Source of the DNA: Flavobacterium gelidicaeli
GTDB taxonomy: Bacteria; Bacteroidota; Bacteroidia; Flavobacteriales; Flavobacteriaceae
Reading direction: 5' to 3'
Assembly (NCBI RefSeq): GCF_013294005.1
Contig: NZ_JABSNK010000004.1
Location: 186,001 to 250,000, forward strand
Length of the DNA stretch: 64,000 nucleotides
This document shows, piece after piece, positions 19,196 to 28,612 of this stretch. The notes beneath the pieces were generated by a model that saw only the letters and a program-made list of their open reading frames with translations, was not told where the DNA came from and ran no database searches. The position numbers were made by a program, and so were the translations under genes. Positions within the stretch are counted from its first letter, which is position 1; the number at the start of each line of letters is the position of its first letter.

Positions 19196-20713
19196 GTGAA
19201 TACACCGAAAAGTTATTTTTTTCAATCATTTTTGATTATTCTTTTAGCCACACTATTTTTTATAGGAATAAAAGAAGTATTACCCAAACAACTTTTTTCT
19301 GAAAAGGAAGCTGGTACTAAAAACGTACTTATCGATAGTATGTTAATTGATGCAATAAATGCAGATAAGAATATAGAGCAACAAGGAGTAATGGGTGATT
19401 CTATTACTCCTGGTGCTACTGATTCTCTGGGTAATCCTATCCTTAATCAGCAAGTTGCGAGTAGTTCAAACCTAGGAGTTGTATTTTCGGGTGAATCTTA
19501 CGAAAACTACAATGGAACGCAATTTTTAAGCGCGTTCTATGAAAAGTTATTCCAAATAGAAACCAACCACAAAGGAAAAGTTCGCATTGCTTATTTTGGC
19601 GATTCAATGACTGATGGCGATTTTATCGTTCAAGATTTCCGTAGTGAATATCAAAATAAATTTGGCGGTGAAGGAGTTGGTTTTGTTGCGATAACTTCTG
19701 AGTCAGCATCATCGCGTAGTTCTGTAACGCACCAGTATTCTAAAAACTGGAAAATGCAATCGTACTTGAATGTTAAAAATCCCATTAGGCCATTTGCTGT
19801 AAATGGTCATGTGTTTTTTGCAAATGATACAATAAATAAAACCTGGGTTAAATACCAAGCAGGAAGAGGTAAAAATACCTCACAGTTAAATAACCCTACG
19901 TTGTTCTACGGAAGTGCTGCCAATCAAAATGGTTTTATTTCGTACCAAATTAAGAACGATACGATTATTAAAAAATTAAATCCTACTAAGATTTTAAATA
20001 CTATTCAGCTTGCGCCAAATAACTTACAAGCGGTAACTATTGCTTTTAAGAAAGCAAAATCGATTCCTATTTACGGAGTGAATTTTGATAACGGAAAGGG
20101 AGTTCACGTTGATAATTTTTCGCAACGTGGAAATTCTGGAATCCCAATATCTAAATTTGATGTGCCTTTAATGAATGCTTTTCAGCAAAAGTTAGGTTAC
20201 GACCTGATTGTATTGCATTATGGGACTAATGTTTTAAAATACGGAACGTTAGATTTTAGTTGGTACGATAAAAGTATGACTAGAACGGTTGAACGTTTGC
20301 AAAAAAGTTTTCCTGGAGCGGCTATTTTAATTATTTCTACAGCAGATAAGTCGTCTAAATATGATGCAGTTATGAAAACAGATTCCGCTGTAGTACCACT
20401 TACCAATTCTCAAAAGAGGTATGCCGCAAAAACAAAATCAGCATATATCGATTTGTATAAATTAATGGGAGGTGATGGTTCTATGGCAAAATGGGTAGAG
20501 CAAGATCCACCTTTAGCAAATAAGGATTATACCCATTTTAATTTTAGAGGAGCTAAAAAAATTGGCGGTATGTTATTCCAAGAATTAGATAAAGGATACG
20601 AAAAATACAAGCTTTTGCGAAAGCGAGCAAATCCAATAAATCAAAATACTACTGCTGTGAAAATCAAATCAGATAGTATTACAAACAATCAAGAAAGTAC
20701 CAATGGGCAATAA
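19196..20713 (+). CDS. Membrane-anchored SGNH/GDSL-fold hydrolase or acyltransferase
   Basis: The 505-residue protein starts at GTG and has a single N-terminal membrane anchor (about residues 8-27), so the bulk is periplasmic. SGNH blocks are visible: YFGDSMTDGD with Ser137, HYGTN with Asn345, and DYTHFN with Asp444 and His447. About 200 residues separate the first and third blocks, which leaves room for an inserted beta domain as in AlgX/PatB-like enzymes. SGNH enzymes hydrolyse esters or, when paired with MBOAT proteins, transfer acetyl groups to glycans. The gene overlaps the next by 11 bases and is followed by an MBOAT gene. Role inferred: the periplasmic step of glycan O-acylation. Confidence 0.8.
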   Translation: MNTPKSYFFQSFLIILLATLFFIGIKEVLPKQLFSEKEAGTKNVLIDSMLIDAINADKNIEQQGVMGDSITPGATDSLGNPILNQQVASSSNLGVVFSGESYENYNGTQFLSAFYEKLFQIETNHKGKVRIAYFGDSMTDGDFIVQDFRSEYQNKFGGEGVGFVAITSESASSRSSVTHQYSKNWKMQSYLNVKNPIRPFAVNGHVFFANDTINKTWVKYQAGRGKNTSQLNNPTLFYGSAANQNGFISYQIKNDTIIKKLNPTKILNTIQLAPNNLQAVTIAFKKAKSIPIYGVNFDNGKGVHVDNFSQRGNSGIPISKFDVPLMNAFQQKLGYDLIVLHYGTNVLKYGTLDFSWYDKSMTRTVERLQKSFPGAAILIISTADKSSKYDAVMKTDSAVVPLTNSQKRYAAKTKSAYIDLYKLMGGDGSMAKWVEQDPPLANKDYTHFNFRGAKKIGGMLFQELDKGYEKYKLLRKRANPINQNTTAVKIKSDSITNNQESTNGQ

Positions 20714-22127
20714 ATTATATCTGTTATTTTTAATTGGGTTCATTAGCTTTAAAGGCTGTTCACAAACAAAGGATACCACTGACACTACTGTAACTATGGA
20801 CGAAAACATTAGCAACAAATCGGTTTCTCATTCATATAACGATGAAAATGGAATTCAGAATAGTATTGAAATAGCCTCTTTTTTAGCCAAGCTAAAGCAG
20901 TTAAAACACGATAACTCAGGTCAAATTAATATTGTACATATTGGGGACTCTCATATTCAAGCAGATTTGATGACCAATGAGATTCGGGAGAATTTGCAAG
21001 ATTATTTTGGAAATGCAGGTAGGGGCTTTATTTTTCCGCATAATTTGGCTAAAACCAATGGATCATCTGATTTTCGATTTTCATCAAATGTAATCTGGAA
21101 AAACTATAGAAATATTTTCCCTGATAATGGAGATCCCATTGGACTGAGCGGGATTTTATTAAGTACTAATTCTAAAAAATTAGTATTGCAGTTAAATGCT
21201 AAAGAAGCTGCAAATGATTTTAATACTATAAAAATCATTACACCAGAGAATAAAGATTTATTTGAAATAGCAACTTCTAAAGAAGCCATTATTTTAAAAT
21301 CTACTGCGCCTAAAGTGATTGTTCATAAGATTAAAAGAGGCGAAACTATATCAGAAATTGCTGAGAAATATGGTGTCACTGCAGCACAATTAAAAAAAGC
21401 AAACGGATTAAAATCAACCCGAATCGCTTTTGGTAAAACCTTAAAAATCCCTACTAAGGAAACTAAGGAAGTGTCAGTTTCAGAGTCTTATTTTAAGCCG
21501 TTAGATTTATTAGCTACTAATAATTACCATTATTACCACTCTGATGAAGCTTTGCGTAAAATATATTTGTTACCTAATAAAGAACAATCAGATTATGTAT
21601 TAAGCGGTGTTGTGTTAGAAAATGACAAACCTGGGATACTATATCATAACCTAGGGGTTAACGGAGCTAAATTTTCTGATTACAATAAATACCCTTTGTT
21701 TTTTGAGCAGTTAAAAGGATTACAACCTAATTTAATAGTTGTTTCTTTTGGTACTAATGAGTCTTACGGGAAATTTACCAATGAGGAGTTCATGAGCCAA
21801 TTAGAACTGTTTATAAAAAATGTAAAAAAGGCCAATCCTAATTCAGCAATTTTAGTTTTGACGCCGCCACCGTCCTTTTTAGCACATCATAAATTAAATA
21901 CAATTGTTGATGGTTATTGTGATGAAATTAAAAAAGGAGCGATTCAAAATCAATATGCAGTATATGATTTGTATTCCCAACTAGGAGGTTTGCACGGAGT
22001 AGAGAAAAACTTTAAAAACGGAATAATAGCCGCAGATAGAGTGCATTATACTGTTGCGGGTTATCAATTACAAGGTGCCTTAGTTTCAGAAGAGATTATT
22101 AAAACATTTCATAATTATAATAAGTAA
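20703..22127 (+). CDS. SGNH-fold lipoprotein with internal LysM domain
   Basis: The 474-residue product has a possible lipobox at FKGC (Cys19). SGNH blocks are VHIGDSHIQAD (Ser83), VSFGTNES (Asn352) and ADRVHYT (Asp445, His448). A LysM domain lies between them at about residues 207-250, reading HKIKRGETISEIAEKYGVT and ending LKIPT. LysM binds N-acetylglucosamine-containing glycans, chiefly peptidoglycan. The gene starts inside the previous one (11-base overlap) and ends 6 bases before the MBOAT gene, so the three are translationally linked. I infer an O-acyltransferase or esterase held on the cell wall by its LysM domain. Confidence 0.8.
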   Translation: MGNKLYLLFLIGFISFKGCSQTKDTTDTTVTMDENISNKSVSHSYNDENGIQNSIEIASFLAKLKQLKHDNSGQINIVHIGDSHIQADLMTNEIRENLQDYFGNAGRGFIFPHNLAKTNGSSDFRFSSNVIWKNYRNIFPDNGDPIGLSGILLSTNSKKLVLQLNAKEAANDFNTIKIITPENKDLFEIATSKEAIILKSTAPKVIVHKIKRGETISEIAEKYGVTAAQLKKANGLKSTRIAFGKTLKIPTKETKEVSVSESYFKPLDLLATNNYHYYHSDEALRKIYLLPNKEQSDYVLSGVVLENDKPGILYHNLGVNGAKFSDYNKYPLFFEQLKGLQPNLIVVSFGTNESYGKFTNEEFMSQLELFIKNVKKANPNSAILVLTPPPSFLAHHKLNTIVDGYCDEIKKGAIQNQYAVYDLYSQLGGLHGVEKNFKNGIIAADRVHYTVAGYQLQGALVSEEIIKTFHNYNK

Positions 22128-22133
22128 TAATAA

Positions 22134-23831
22134 GTGGATATTTTATCAGCATTACAAAATTGGTTCATGCAAACTTATGGACAAATTTCACTAGATGAAA
22201 TTGGGAATTGGTTTGTTTACAATCCTAAAGAGCCTATTTTATTTAATACGGCTTTCTTTCTAGGAGTGTTCTTAGTTTTTTATCCTATTTATATTTTAAC
22301 GACAAAAGTAAGTTCACGTATATATCGTAATATCTATGTGTTTGCCTTTTCGCTATTTTTCTATTATAAGTCAAGTGGTGTTTATTTTTTATTATTACTT
22401 TTTTCGGGAGTAATAGATTTTACTTTAGCCAAGTTTTTATACCAAGAAACAAACGAGCGTTTCCGGAAATTTTTCATTATCGTCAGTGTGCTTTTTAATT
22501 TGGGTTTCCTAGGTTATTTTAAGTATGCTAACTTTATGATTGTGAGTTATAATGGACTATTTGAAGGACATTTATCGTTGCAGAATATTATTCTTCCTGT
22601 TGGGATTTCGTTTTATACTTTTCAGTCAATGAGTTACATTATTGATATTTATAGAAGAGAACTAGAGCCTACAAAGAACTTTTTTGACTACATGTTTTTT
22701 GTGTCTTTCTTTCCACAATTAGTCGCAGGGCCTATTGTAAGAGCATCTGAGTTTATTCCGCAAATTTATAAAAAGACAACACTATCTCGTTCTGACGTTA
22801 ATAATGCCTTGTTTATGATTATAGGAGGATTGATAAAGAAAACAGTAGTTTCTGATTATATCTCGTTGAATTTTGTTGATCGTGTTTTTGATGCGCCAAA
22901 GAGTTATACCGCCTTTGAAAATTTAATGGCTGCCTATGGATATACGTTACAAATTTATTGTGATTTTTCAGGATATTCTGATATGGCCATTGGTATTGCT
23001 TTGTTAATGGGCTTTAAATTATCAACAAACTTTGTAACTCCCTATAAGTCGGCTTCTATTACTGAATTCTGGAGACGATGGCACATCTCGTTATCCACAT
23101 GGTTGCGTGATTATTTATACATCACAATAGGAGGGAATCGCAGCGGCTCATTTGCTGGATTTTTATTCCCATCAGTATTTTTTGGAGGGTTATTAATTTA
23201 TGGGTTTTTACAATTTGCTGTTTCACCTATTCCATTAATTATAGGTATTGTTGCTGCAATTGTCTTTATCCTGACAATAGTTTTTTCTAAAAATTCAGAA
23301 AAGACAATGTATACCAATGTCAATATGATGACCACAATGTTGTTAGGCGGTTTCTGGCATGGAGCCAGTGTTCGTTTTATTGTTTGGGGTGCTTTGCATG
23401 GTTTGGCTTTGGCAGTAAATAAAGTTTTTGCCGAATATTTTCCTGATAAAAAAGGAGCAAAGTGGACAATTAATAAGGGGTTTTTTCATGTGATTTCTGT
23501 TTTAATCACCTTTCATTTTGTTGCTTTCTGTTGGATTTTCTTCCGTGCAGGGACTTTTGCAATAGCATTAGATGTATTAAATTCTATACAGCAAGTAACT
23601 TTTGATCCATCACAGTGGTGGGTTATTGCTCAAGGATATGAAAACGTATTTATTGTAATGCTTTTTGGTTTTGCTTGGCATTTTCTTCCTGCAAGAATAG
23701 TCGAATTCAATAAATCAATCTTTGATAAAATGCCTATTGTATTTAAAGCTTTTGCATTAGCTATGACATTTTGGGTGGTGTATGCAACCTCTACAAGTGG
23801 GCCACAACCATTTATTTATTTCCAGTTTTAA
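22134..23831 (+). CDS. MBOAT-family membrane O-acyltransferase (AlgI/PatA-like)
   Basis: The 565-residue protein has about ten to twelve membrane spans and starts at GTG. It carries the MBOAT hallmarks: QSMSYIIDIYRRE, then a FWRRWHISLSTWLRDYLYI segment, and the active-site histidine region GGFWHGASVRFIVWGALHG. AlgI and PatA members move acetyl groups from a cytoplasmic donor across the inner membrane, where SGNH partners pass them to alginate, cellulose, peptidoglycan or other glycans. It follows the LysM-SGNH gene by 6 bases. Together with the two SGNH genes it forms a plausible complete acylation system. A strong bidirectional terminator closes the unit. Confidence 0.9.
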   Translation: MDILSALQNWFMQTYGQISLDEIGNWFVYNPKEPILFNTAFFLGVFLVFYPIYILTTKVSSRIYRNIYVFAFSLFFYYKSSGVYFLLLLFSGVIDFTLAKFLYQETNERFRKFFIIVSVLFNLGFLGYFKYANFMIVSYNGLFEGHLSLQNIILPVGISFYTFQSMSYIIDIYRRELEPTKNFFDYMFFVSFFPQLVAGPIVRASEFIPQIYKKTTLSRSDVNNALFMIIGGLIKKTVVSDYISLNFVDRVFDAPKSYTAFENLMAAYGYTLQIYCDFSGYSDMAIGIALLMGFKLSTNFVTPYKSASITEFWRRWHISLSTWLRDYLYITIGGNRSGSFAGFLFPSVFFGGLLIYGFLQFAVSPIPLIIGIVAAIVFILTIVFSKNSEKTMYTNVNMMTTMLLGGFWHGASVRFIVWGALHGLALAVNKVFAEYFPDKKGAKWTINKGFFHVISVLITFHFVAFCWIFFRAGTFAIALDVLNSIQQVTFDPSQWWVIAQGYENVFIVMLFGFAWHFLPARIVEFNKSIFDKMPIVFKAFALAMTFWVVYATSTSGPQPFIYFQF

Positions 23832-23850
23832 TACTTGATAATAATATATA

Positions 23851-23886
23851 AAAACACCCGATAATTACAAAATTATCGGGTGTTTT
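23851..23886. terminator. Bidirectional terminator after the MBOAT gene
   Basis: AAAACACCCGATAATT and AATTATCGGGTGTTTT pair perfectly over an ACAA loop. It lies between the plus-strand MBOAT gene and the minus-strand DUF6607-like gene and can serve both. Confidence 0.92.
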
Positions 23887-24929: not shown

Positions 24930-27044
24930 ATGAAATTAAAAATAACTTTATTTGTGACTCTCTTTTTATATGGAACAACTTTCGGTCAAGTCAGGGATAG
25001 TATCTCGTCAATAGAGAAATTATCTGAGGTCGTAGTTACTGGTCAATTTGAACCACAATCAATAAAAAAGGCAGTTTTTAATGTTCGTGTTATTTCAAAA
25101 GAAGACATCAAGCAATTAGCGGCAACTAATTTATCAGATGTTTTAAATCAGTATTTAAACATTACCGTAACACCAAGCGGAACTGATGGACGATCTACTG
25201 TTTCATTATTTGGTTTAGATGCGCAATATTTTAAAATTTTGATTGATAATGTACCTCTTGTAAGCGAGGCCGGTTTAGGAAATAATACTGATTTATCACA
25301 AATAAATTTGAATGATGTGGAGCAAATAGAGATTGTCGAGGGTTCAATGGGAGTTGCCTATGGGGCAAATGCAGTAAGCGGTGTATTGAATATTATAACC
25401 AAGAAATCAGCAATTAACAAATGGAATATATCTGCAGCTGTTCAGGAAGAAACTGTAGGGAATGAATTTGCTTTATTTGATAAAGGCAGGCACATACAAT
25501 CATTAAGTATAAATCATTCTATTGATAAATATTGGTTTGCAAGTGCTGCACTTAATCGGAATGATTTTCAGGGATTTTTAGACAATAAAAAAGGTAAAGA
25601 TTATTCTGAGACTGATTTTAACCGTGGATACAGTTGGCTTCCTAAAGAACAATTGAATGGAACAGCACTTGTTGCATATAAAAAAGATGCTTTCAGAATT
25701 TTTTACAAATTTGAATTTTTAGACGAAACAGTAGCGTATTACAATAGCACCGTACAATCAGGATACAATGCTCAATTGGGATCCTATCGGTATACGAATG
25801 ATAAAAGGTATATGACAAATAGGTATTTTCATAATGTGAATGCTACAGGGAAAATATTTTCTAAATTGAATTATAACGTGTCACTCTCTCATCAAAAACA
25901 ACAAAGAGAAGTTGCTGATTTTAAGTATTATTTATTTTCTCAAACGGAAGCGGATAATAGTAGTATTAAAGATCAATCCATGGAAGTATTGTATTCTACG
26001 GGAACATTAAGTAATATTTTCAATAGTAAAATTATTGATCTACAATTAGGTTATGAAATAGTTAATAACAATGGCTTTTCACTGATACAAGAAGCAAATA
26101 ATAGCATTGTTCCTATTCGAAAAAGACTAAATAATTATGATTTCTTTGTCTCTTCAGAGATCAATATTTTTGAAAAAATGGCTATACGACCAGGTATCCG
26201 AATATCATCTCAATCACAATTTGAAAATCAATATGCATCTTCATTAGGATTGCGCTATTCTTTTGAAAAAGGAATTGATTTTCGAATGTCATACGGGAAA
26301 TCATTTCGCACACCTACTTTTAACGAGCTTTATTCCAAACAAATTTTTGACGGTCATTTCTTTACAGGTAACGAGAGTCTAGTTCCTGAGCAAAGTACTT
26401 CTTATGAAACGAGTCTTAAGAAAACTACTAATTTGTATTCAGGTGTGCAACTTTCAAATACAGTAACTGCTAGTTTTTTAAATGTTAAGGATCGAATTGA
26501 TATGGCATTAATTGGCTTTAATGAAGACACTGGCAATCCCATGTACCAATACATTAATATCAGTACGTATAAAATGTGGAATGTTTCAACGATGAATCAG
26601 TTTAAAAAAGGAAGTTTCAATTTTAATGTAGGCGCTTCTTTTATTGGGATCTCACAGGAAATAGACAATCAAGTTTATAGTTCAGATGATCGTTTTTTAT
26701 ATTCATTTAATATCAATAGTAGCCTTTCTTACACAATTCCAAAATGGGAAACTACAGTAGCGACATATTATAAATATAACGGAAAAACGCAACAGTTTAT
26801 AGAAGGTAATTCAACGTACGTGGTGTCTGAAATTGATGACAGCAACTGGTTGGACGCCTCTATTCAAAAAAGTTTTTTCAATGAAAAAATAGTCACCATC
26901 ATAGGATCTAGAAATTTATTTAATGTTGGTAATGTTAATCAGTCAGGTGCAAATTTAGCAGCTGGTCATGCAACATCCTCTAATGTAATGCTTGCTTATG
27001 GGCGCTCTTATTTTATCAAATTTACGTATAACCTTAATTTTTAA
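24930..27044 (+). CDS. TonB-dependent outer-membrane receptor, iron/heme type
   Basis: The 704-residue protein has a signal peptide ending near TFGQ. A TonB-box-like SEVVVTG (about 32-38) and a plug domain (ISKEDIKQLAATNLSDVLNQYL, then LFGLDAQYFKILIDNVPL, then IEIVEGSMGVAYGANAVSGVLNIITK) follow. The barrel carries FRTPTFNELY and GNESLVPEQS, equivalent to the FRAP and NPDL boxes of heme and siderophore receptors. It imports a ligand using energy from TonB-ExbBD. The next gene encodes an HmuY-like lipoprotein, so heme or an iron complex is the likely cargo. The ATG lies 27 bases past a consensus -7 box, and the gene starts a three-gene operon with HmuY-like and DoxX-like genes. Confidence 0.9.
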   Translation: MKLKITLFVTLFLYGTTFGQVRDSISSIEKLSEVVVTGQFEPQSIKKAVFNVRVISKEDIKQLAATNLSDVLNQYLNITVTPSGTDGRSTVSLFGLDAQYFKILIDNVPLVSEAGLGNNTDLSQINLNDVEQIEIVEGSMGVAYGANAVSGVLNIITKKSAINKWNISAAVQEETVGNEFALFDKGRHIQSLSINHSIDKYWFASAALNRNDFQGFLDNKKGKDYSETDFNRGYSWLPKEQLNGTALVAYKKDAFRIFYKFEFLDETVAYYNSTVQSGYNAQLGSYRYTNDKRYMTNRYFHNVNATGKIFSKLNYNVSLSHQKQQREVADFKYYLFSQTEADNSSIKDQSMEVLYSTGTLSNIFNSKIIDLQLGYEIVNNNGFSLIQEANNSIVPIRKRLNNYDFFVSSEINIFEKMAIRPGIRISSQSQFENQYASSLGLRYSFEKGIDFRMSYGKSFRTPTFNELYSKQIFDGHFFTGNESLVPEQSTSYETSLKKTTNLYSGVQLSNTVTASFLNVKDRIDMALIGFNEDTGNPMYQYINISTYKMWNVSTMNQFKKGSFNFNVGASFIGISQEIDNQVYSSDDRFLYSFNINSSLSYTIPKWETTVATYYKYNGKTQQFIEGNSTYVVSEIDDSNWLDASIQKSFFNEKIVTIIGSRNLFNVGNVNQSGANLAAGHATSSNVMLAYGRSYFIKFTYNLNF

Positions 27045-27060
27045 TATATATTTTAATACT

Positions 27061-28143
27061 ATGAAAAAGACAATTTTTTCTTTGACATTCGCCTTATTAA
27101 CACTTGCTTCGTGCTCAAATAATGAAGCAGACCCTATCGAGATAGCTACCGTTGGGGAGACTTTACAACCCAATGTGGGCGGTCCTAACGAACCCAATCA
27201 AGTTTATTTAGATTTAAGCACAGCAAAAATGGATGTTGTTGATAGAGCATCATGGGATTTCGGGTTTTCAAGCGGTTCTGATTTTAGAGTAGTCATTAAT
27301 GGTGCCCTTAAAATGGCCGTAAAACAACTAGCTACTTCAGATATTAGTTTGCCACAAGAAATAAACAGTGCAGTAACAGTAGGGGCAGGAACTACCGCTT
27401 CTTCAAACGGATATGTAGACAACCCGACAGGAGTTTTACAAGGAGATGGAGCAGGACTTGGAACTGCTATTGCTGAAATTTCAGCTACAGAAGCTGACAA
27501 TAAAGTGTATTTAGTTAATCTAGGATACGCAGTTTCAACAGAAACTCCAGTTGTAGGTTCTGTTAGTGTTGATGGGATTGCAAGAGGTTGGAAAAAAGTT
27601 AGAATTTTAAGAAACGGTACAGGTTATAAAATTCAGTATGCAGATTTAACAGCTACAACTTTTGAAGAAAAAATAATTGCTAAAGATGCGAATTTCAATT
27701 TTTCATTTTTTAGTTTAATTACTGAAAAAAATGTTGCAGTTGAGCCATTAAAAACAAAATGGGATTTGAACTTTACCATTTTTACAAATTATGTGAACTT
27801 TGGTTCAGAAGTGACTTATGGTTATTCTGATTTTATTGTTTCAAATACCAATGGAGGTACAAAAGTGTACCAAGTGCTAGAAGCTGATGGGGGATCTTAT
27901 TTGGCTTTCGCCAAAGCAAATGTAGTTGAAGATAATTTTGTTTTTTCAAGTACTGATCAAAGAGTAATTGGTTCTAGTTGGAGGAGCGGTGGCGGACCGG
28001 GAACTTTACCAAGTATTAAAACAGATCGTTTTTATGTGGTAAAAGATGCTGCTGATAATTATTATAAAATAAAATTTCTAAGCATGACCAATGATGCTGG
28101 AGAAAGAGGAAATCCTATTTTAGAATATGCAATTTTAAATTAA
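27061..28143 (+). CDS. HmuY-family surface lipoprotein lacking histidine
   Basis: I chose ATG 27061, which gives a lipoprotein signal MKKTIFSLTFALLTLASC (Cys18), 16 bases after the receptor stop. The 360-residue product has the HmuY pattern: QVYLDLSTAK, then SWDFGFSSG, then KTKWDLNFTIFTNYV and a C-terminal FYVVKDAADNYYKIKFLS. HmuY of Porphyromonas gingivalis binds heme with two histidines and passes it to the receptor HmuR. This protein contains no histidine at all. Its only internal methionines are Met57, Met85 and Met342. It may use other ligands, as some HmuY relatives use methionines, or bind something other than heme. An insertion of about 60 Gly/Ala/Thr-rich residues (100-160) is also present. 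Confidence 0.85.
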   Translation: MKKTIFSLTFALLTLASCSNNEADPIEIATVGETLQPNVGGPNEPNQVYLDLSTAKMDVVDRASWDFGFSSGSDFRVVINGALKMAVKQLATSDISLPQEINSAVTVGAGTTASSNGYVDNPTGVLQGDGAGLGTAIAEISATEADNKVYLVNLGYAVSTETPVVGSVSVDGIARGWKKVRILRNGTGYKIQYADLTATTFEEKIIAKDANFNFSFFSLITEKNVAVEPLKTKWDLNFTIFTNYVNFGSEVTYGYSDFIVSNTNGGTKVYQVLEADGGSYLAFAKANVVEDNFVFSSTDQRVIGSSWRSGGGPGTLPSIKTDRFYVVKDAADNYYKIKFLSMTNDAGERGNPILEYAILN

Positions 28144-28147
28144 AATT

Positions 28148-28612
28148 ATGAAAAAGATACTACCTGTACTTAAAGTACTATTTAGCCTGATATTAGGAGG
28201 GATGATGATTTTTGGAGGAATCAAGAAATTTGATAAACCAGCTCCATCACCTACCGAAATTATTGAGACTGTAAAGAAAGGAGAAGAAGTAGCTCCTAAT
28301 ACCGAGATCCTAAAGATTAAAAATTACGTTTTCGGGATGAAACAAACTAATTACTTCTGGGAATTTTTAGGTTTTGTAGAAATCCTAGCTGGGGTATTAT
28401 TAATAAGTCAGTTTTTCTCTTTATTGGGGGCAATAGTGGCGTTACCTGTAACCATTAATATATTCTTATTTCATTTGTTTCTAGAACCTAATGAAATTGG
28501 AGAGTTATTCCAGATGTTAGGATTGTTAATCATAAACTTAGCAATAATAGGCTTTAGTTATAAATTATGGAAACCTATTTTGATTAATAGGAACATATTA
28601 CGATTGAGTTAG
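28148..28612 (+). CDS. DoxX-like small membrane protein
   Basis: The 154-residue protein has four hydrophobic spans, with a first helix LKVLFSLILGGMMIFGGIKKF typical of the DoxX/DoxD-like family. A loop with many charges follows, then FWEFLGFVEILAGVLLI and LFHLFLEP. DoxX-like proteins are membrane proteins of mostly unknown role, some tied to redox or thiosulfate metabolism. It begins 4 bases after the HmuY-like gene, so it is the last gene of the receptor operon, and is followed by a terminator. A role in reduction or release of the imported ligand is conjecture. Confidence 0.75.
   Translation: MKKILPVLKVLFSLILGGMMIFGGIKKFDKPAPSPTEIIETVKKGEEVAPNTEILKIKNYVFGMKQTNYFWEFLGFVEILAGVLLISQFFSLLGAIVALPVTINIFLFHLFLEPNEIGELFQMLGLLIINLAIIGFSYKLWKPILINRNILRLS

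Follow-up and report, generated by a model that had tools for sequence, protein, structure and literature searches.

A putative O-acetyl-peptidoglycan operon of the Bacteroidota type in Flavobacterium gelidicaeli, with a LysM module inside one of its two SGNH proteins

The window analysed here is a stretch of 64,000 nucleotides from Flavobacterium gelidicaeli (NCBI RefSeq assembly GCF_013294005.1, contig NZ_JABSNK010000004.1, positions 186,001 to 250,000 of the forward strand). It contains three plus-strand genes 3' of argS, in the order A, B, C. Judged from sequence, they form an O-acetyl-peptidoglycan (OAP) cluster of the Bacteroidota type, a known kind of cluster in which the LysM module of B is new. 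We consider it probable that C and A of this operon acetylate peptidoglycan and that B deacetylates it. A would most likely occupy the seat of PatB, and B would be an esterase of the Ape1 type. A previous sequence-only reading of the genes had proposed a cell-wall O-acylation system. That proposal appears well supported by the Ape1 folds and the known kin described below, and can be worded more precisely as an OAP cluster.

Gene A ('Ape1b' type, 19196-20713) has a GTG start and encodes an SGNH protein of 505 aa, predicted to be membrane-anchored. Gene B ('Ape1c' type, 20703-22127) encodes an SGNH protein of 474 aa with an inserted LysM, apparently secreted. Gene C (22134-23831), also with a GTG start, encodes a PatA-like MBOAT of 565 aa. 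A and B overlap by 11 bases (20703-20713), and B and C are separated by 6 bases (22128-22133). These reading frames, the overlap and the gap were as the sequence-only reading had them. Its calls of SGNH, LysM-SGNH and MBOAT domains were confirmed by Pfam, each above the curated cut-off: Lipase_GDSL_2 in A (1.1e-9), LysM (2e-13) and Lipase_GDSL_2 (6.4e-13) in B, and MBOAT in C (2.4e-20).

The order A-B-C was present in 75 of the 80 named loci with A, which were the best 80 of at least 571 confirmed stretches and were weighted to Flavobacterium. One more locus (L167) had it in broken pieces. A locus of Flavobacterium johnsoniae (L152) is among those with A-B-C. This suggested that the linkage is not due to chance. 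It also bore out the co-occurrence in relatives, which the sequence-only reading had set as a check.

To see which SGNH protein goes with the MBOAT, matches to profiles of A, B and C were tallied by us over 138 Bacteroidota genomes. The cuts were at least 300 bits for A, 370 bits for B and 620 bits for C, and genome G114, in which a contig end truncates C (321 bits), was added. The rows excluded below these cuts were another SGNH family, short separate SGNH reading frames and other MBOATs (best 499 bits). The A family and cluster-type C were found in one and the same set of 29 genomes, which share ancestry and are thus not 29 independent events. B was found in 15 of them. The other 14 comprise G114, in which the contig ends inside C, and 13 members of family f16. 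The tables name mostly genomes with a match. In 26 of the 29, A and C were on the same contig and no more than about 6 kb apart. Within genus g1, they were either jointly present (G000 and G025) or jointly absent (G021, G057, G068 and G084).

A PatB profile built from two rows had a single match among the 138 genomes, adjoining a different MBOAT in G066. The presence of A and C in the same 29 genomes, of B in 15 and of a PatB match in one suggested that the transferase partner of C is more likely A than B. The PatB match itself (L208, G066 C74:155830-156483) occurs in a genome that also carries an A-C cluster. The same two-row profile found no match in the F. gelidicaeli genome, a search without an independent control for which G066 serves as the sole partial one. 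No AT3 (OatA-type) protein was found in this genome either, with a control that matched 10 of 14.

Of the 13 f16 genomes without B, 11 (all except G035 and G051) have a different, single-domain SGNH gene adjoining A. Thus the second SGNH slot appears exchangeable, unlike A and C. The gene in question lies upstream of A and encodes an apparently secreted protein of about 220 to 265 aa (L099, L100, L103-L106 and L200-L204). The protein from one such locus had no NCBIfam match.

A tree of the SGNH proteins separated A from B and the Ape1 of Neisseria and Proteus, which lay together, with support of 100/100. This tree has 57 rows and an arbitrary root, and its only two Ape1 rows were both flagged for composition. 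The sequence-only reading had taken the two SGNH proteins as acylation partners of the MBOAT. From the co-occurrence and the tree, the transferase role is favoured for A, and B is favoured as an esterase instead.

Conservation was examined in sets of 126 distinct A, 115 B and 120 C sequences; the additions from named loci excluded L167 and any sequence of up to 380 aa. In A, residues S137, G162, G343, N345, D444 and H447 were identical in all 126. The codon of the catalytic Ser137 is at 19604-19606. In B, S83, G350, N352, D445 and H448 were found in all 115 and G108 in 114; the catalytic Ser83 codon is at 20949-20951. The Ser/Asn/Asp-His blocks seen in the sequence-only reading are therefore intact in both proteins and near-invariant among homologues.

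Against PDB sequences, A matched Ape1 of N. meningitidis (3.5e-17), and no PatB was among its three matches up to E 1. The AlphaFold model of A (pLDDT 83.6) had N. meningitidis Ape1 (4K3U) as its best fold match, with Z 35.6 over 344 residues at 3.1 A. C. jejuni Ape1 came second (Z 31.3; PDB 8GKD, taken as this protein from a passage in a paper and from the fold search), and the first row other than Ape1 had Z 15.7. B behaved likewise, with a match to N. meningitidis Ape1 in PDB sequences (1.4e-17), a model of pLDDT 89.7, a best fold match to 4K3U (Z 37.7, 335 residues, 2.5 A), C. jejuni Ape1 second (Z 33.9) and the first non-Ape1 row at 19.7. PatB structures were absent from the top 50 fold-search rows for B, which carries no weight either way. 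As modelled, both A and B have the Ape1 architecture, which combines SGNH blocks with a non-catalytic insert domain. By family, A is on these comparisons not a PatB.

The two proteins differed in their motifs. Motif I is GDSM and motif VII is DYTH in A, as against GDS(H/F) and Dx(V/T)H printed for Ape1. Those of B, GDSH and DRVH, agree with the printed motifs.

The N-termini also differed. In A, a membrane-anchor helix is predicted at aa 7-28 (19214-19279, plus strand) from the model and from the hydropathy of homologues. N-terminal hydropathy was above our cut in 119 of the 126 A homologues, and a cleavage-like motif was found in one. The same hydropathy cut was exceeded in 27 of the 115 B homologues. 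Our rule for cleavage motifs is loose, and only 33 of the 115 B satisfied it. The possibility that B is a lipoprotein was rejected: its FKGC falls outside our lipobox rule, which 2 of the 115 homologues fit. B was therefore treated as secreted.

Gene C resembles PatA. Against PDB sequences it matched DltB (7.1e-20), and its profile matched the MBOATs of the patA-patB-ape1 loci of Neisseria and Proteus with 349 and 371 bits. The proposed catalytic His of the WHG motif, His409 (codon at 23358-23360), was present in all 120 homologues; judged by MBOAT motifs, it would be equivalent to His315 of PatA. The protein ends in FIYFQF (23811-23828), with Tyr562 as the proposed acyl carrier, in keeping with the FXYXXF acyl-Tyr motif of PatA. 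Y562 and F565 were found in 120 of 120 homologues and F560 in 108. C thus has the features of PatA, namely an MBOAT domain, an invariant His and a C-terminal FXYXXF. According to passages of PMC12148441, the tyrosine of the C-terminal FXYXXF in C. jejuni PatA is auto-acetylated, and acetyl-FIYANF serves as a donor for N. gonorrhoeae PatB.

By analogy with PatA, C would load acetyl from cytoplasmic acetyl-CoA onto Tyr562 of FIYFQF. A, anchored by its helix beside C, would then pass the acetyl via Ser137 to peptidoglycan, presumably to the C6-OH of MurNAc. Finally, periplasmic B, held on the sacculus by LysM, would strip the acetyl via Ser83, and lytic transglycosylases could then cut. A passage of PMC5077204 states that lytic transglycosylase activity requires prior de-O-acetylation.

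For the phylum at large, we lean slightly towards the view that the MBOAT partner in Bacteroidota is A, a membrane-anchored enzyme with an Ape1 fold, that it arose as a transferase within the Ape1 lineage, separately from PatB, and that it is paired with an exchangeable secreted esterase. This esterase may be a LysM-Ape1, a plain Ape1c or a single-domain SGNH protein.

Several results weigh against the assignment of the transferase role to A. In PatB, Ser or Asn substitutes for the block II Gly, and the catalytic His lies close to a hydrophobic wall (passages of PMC12148441). Both A and B have the canonical block II glycine (located by eye), as G162 in 126 of 126 A and as G108 in 114 of 115 B. 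The position before the catalytic His, hydrophobic in PatB, is mostly Thr446 in A (105 of 126). In hhalign comparisons, A scored 47.3% (E 1.9e-4) against the PatB pair and 99.9% against the Ape1 pair. The model of A matched PatB structures with Z 14.4-15.4, level with generic SGNH hydrolases. There were also exceptions to the pairing of A and C: they are on different contigs in G116 and 16 kb apart in G133, and G051 has C with only a short relative of A, which has an apparent signal peptide and is on another contig. A mirror-tree test did not separate the pairs; over 111 loci the Pearson coefficients were 0.944 for A-C and 0.947 for B-C, and the partial ones 0.464 and 0.511. Finally, a passage of a review (PMC11382707) groups Bacteroidota under OatA/OatB and gives Pat for Pseudomonadota and Campylobacterota.

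Some of these results would be explained if the roles were reversed, with B, through its LysM, acting as the transferase on the mature sacculus and A as the esterase. The esterase-like features kept in the active site of A would fit such an arrangement. In hhalign, B scored higher against the PatB pair (84.4%, E 7.1e-6) than A did, and was nearer still to Ape1. The Capnocytophaga loci L173 and L179 keep B and C together, with A found elsewhere. The residue before the catalytic His of B, Val447 in 100 of 115, resembles the hydrophobic wall of PatB. On the other hand, the same Val is present in Ape1 of Neisseria and Proteus, which indicated that this residue is not decisive. The absence of B from the 14 genomes with C, its grouping with Ape1 in the tree, and its apparently secreted rather than anchored form all speak against the reversal, which we regard as unlikely.

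Equally improbable, in our estimate, is that A and B are both esterases, as their names Ape1b and Ape1c from 2005 imply, and that transfer is done by C alone or by an SGNH protein encoded elsewhere. The Ape1 fold of both models and the canonical block II glycine in both proteins are in its favor. Yet MBOAT and SGNH proteins are paired in many bacterial polymer acylation pathways, and PatA and PatB are both required in their own system (both in passages of PMC12148441). Moreover, every genome with cluster-type C had an A-family protein (29 of 29). The scarcity of PatB matches argues in the same direction, with the limit that distant forms may escape a profile of two rows.

As to the acceptor, the LysM in B and attachments in other lineages pointed to peptidoglycan. 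Three LysM are found at the C-terminus of A in L092, and likewise in L169 of Myroides guanonis, and in L082 B ends in two LysM. Directly upstream of A, L081 has a gene with SLT (above cut-off) and two LysM. L098 has a similar gene, in which SLT is just below the cut-off (20.5 vs 21.3 bits). In L108, a SPOR protein is encoded upstream of A. This repeated attachment of LysM, SPOR and transglycosylase modules suggested that the acceptor is peptidoglycan.

A surface polysaccharide or exopolysaccharide as the acceptor, or an acyl group other than acetyl, appears more doubtful than either change of roles. It draws on several observations. Alginate and cellulose are also served by MBOAT-SGNH pairs, as stated in a passage of PMC12148441. 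Short paralogues of A, mostly signal-peptide-like, occur in L194, L196, L198, L199 and L101. In four short-A loci a similar gene adjoins; in L196 it is a family-2 glycosyltransferase (by Pfam, run for L196 only). This setting in f16 raises the possibility that the fold of A, or an Ape1-fold protein, may serve exopolysaccharide loci too. LysM also binds chitin-like glycans. Of the 13 f16 genomes, 7 have fatty-acyl ligase-like genes beside C or between A and C. Genes for AMP-binding acyl ligases lie between A and C in L100, L103, L104, L108, L197, L200 and L204, and beside C in L195. Two of these ligases were nearest to fatty acyl-AMP and long-chain acyl-CoA ligase models of NCBIfam, below the cut-offs. 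Such a ligase could provide or determine the acyl donor, which may be other than acetyl, and other acceptors could be possible in f16. Against this, no glycosyltransferase genes were recognised around the operon, and the attachments to A and B described above favor peptidoglycan. Bacteroides, which has the same cluster, also has measured peptidoglycan O-acetylation, given in passages of PMC1199599 and PMC11382707.

A Dlt-like D-alanylation system is very improbable: C matched TIGR04091 and DltB structures, but its 179.6 bits are far under the family cut-off of 375 bits, no DltA, DltC or DltD was recognised by eye among the neighbouring reading frames, and teichoic acids are not expected in Bacteroidota.

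The LysM module of B, aa 208-250 (21324-21452), lies between the N- and C-terminal SGNH blocks. It was found inside B in 73 of the 78 named loci with B. These were from Flavobacterium, Myroides, Capnocytophaga, two Dysgonomonas and one metagenome-assembled genome (MAG) of Paludibacteraceae. Four of the five exceptions were loci from Bacteroidetes MAGs (L185-L188), with no LysM in B. The fifth was L167, a broken assembly with the LysM match on a separate fragment. Pfam also found no LysM in the B of Bacteroides finegoldii or of ten further loci, including Parabacteroides distasonis. The LysM in B is thus a feature of part of the phylum, and is new relative to the described cluster. Judged by titles and the starts of abstracts, no description of the LysM variant was found in the literature on Flavobacterium, Bacteroides and Bacteroidota. 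A literature search for MBOAT, SGNH and LysM together turned up the lipocone work, at the level of titles.

The cluster is patchy within its own genus: of 24 other genomes, 12 have a B that is full-length or close to it. A hairpin with arms of 16 bp and a loop of 4 bases (23851-23886) lies between C and a convergent DUF6607 gene. It is terminator-like by sequence, and a scan reported it on the minus strand only. A promoter scan was uninformative (24 found vs 24.5 expected), and no promoter was assigned. The reading frames of at least 100 aa at 15-29 kb, named partly by Pfam and partly by eye, agreed with the sequence-only reading that no alginate or cellulose genes are nearby. At 24930-28612, a TonB-dependent receptor, an HmuY-domain protein and a DoxX-like protein (just below cut-off) are encoded consecutively, likely for haem uptake.

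Additional MBOAT genes were also noted. The second MBOAT of this genome (L096, G000 C4:140500-152000) is outside the window and likewise ends in FIYFQF. It is followed by a small protein, SGNH-like by eye, in a setting of genes that look like those for a surface polysaccharide. In contrast to the operon, it is surrounded by NeuB-like and glycosyltransferase reading frames (named by eye). The four Capnocytophaga genomes G334-G337 (of L173, L179, L171 and L175) each have a second cluster-type MBOAT on another contig, and in two of them an A-like match adjoins it. Two tandem cluster-type MBOAT genes are found 3' of a single A in L105 (6239-9201) and in L201 (3252-6214).

Peptidoglycan of Bacteroides is 56-66% O-acetylated on MurNAc, according to a passage of PMC11382707. 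Such O-acetylation should affect lysozyme and autolysins. No publication assigning the Bacteroidota transferase was found, as judged from titles, starts of abstracts and passages. The operon yields a concrete and testable assignment, A with C as the transferase pair. If true, this would be a possible second route by which an esterase fold turns into a transferase.

Among known systems, the sequence-only reading had drawn a parallel to AlgI/AlgJ/AlgX. The O-acetylation of exopolysaccharides by AlgI/AlgJ/AlgX and WssH/WssI has the MBOAT and SGNH chemistry in common with the operon (passages of PMC12148441). It is not the best comparison, since both SGNH proteins here have an Ape1 fold and match Ape1 best, and no exopolysaccharide genes were recognised beside the operon.

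The patA-patB-ape1 operons of Neisseria and Campylobacter likewise have three genes, an MBOAT with an FXYXXF tail, an SGNH partner bearing an N-terminal membrane helix and a secreted esterase with an Ape1 fold (passages of PMC12148441; L192 and L193). On the other hand, the gene order is different, and A is Ape1-like rather than PatB-like by sequence, with the block II Gly kept. B has LysM, whereas Ape1 reportedly has a family 35 carbohydrate-binding module (a passage of PMC12148441).

The closest kin is the OAP cluster named in 2005 by Weadge, Pfeffer and Clarke, with ape1b first, then ape1c and pat. The passages of their paper (PMC1199599) report 1b and 1c proteins for Bacteroides thetaiotaomicron, B. 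fragilis and Porphyromonas gingivalis. They place a putative cation-efflux gene upstream of the Bacteroides cluster, and give peptidoglycan O-acetylation in the wild type as 69.4% for B. fragilis and 27.0% for B. thetaiotaomicron. Our comparison with the cluster of 2005 was made through proteins of B. finegoldii. The B. finegoldii record has RND efflux genes followed by A, B and C, and the P. distasonis record likewise carries A, B and C. In the 57-row tree, A and B of both species grouped with A and B of the window. Profile matches likewise tied A, B and C of B. finegoldii to those of the window. The shared order and this kinship place the operon in the cluster type of 2005.

The Bacteroides and Porphyromonas ape1b-ape1c-pat cluster therefore has the same three families in the same order as the window. 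The sequence-only reading had suggested a lineage-specific form. This holds for the LysM in B, which is limited to part of the phylum, but not for the layout with two SGNH proteins, which was known in 2005 (PMC1199599). The B of B. finegoldii is a 316-aa reading frame without LysM or insert, as a passage of PMC1199599 says of Ape1c, whereas B of the window carries LysM. The other difference lies in the roles. Ape1b and Ape1c were both regarded as putative esterases in 2005 (the same passages), whereas A is proposed here as the transferase, which would reverse the meaning of the name Ape1b.

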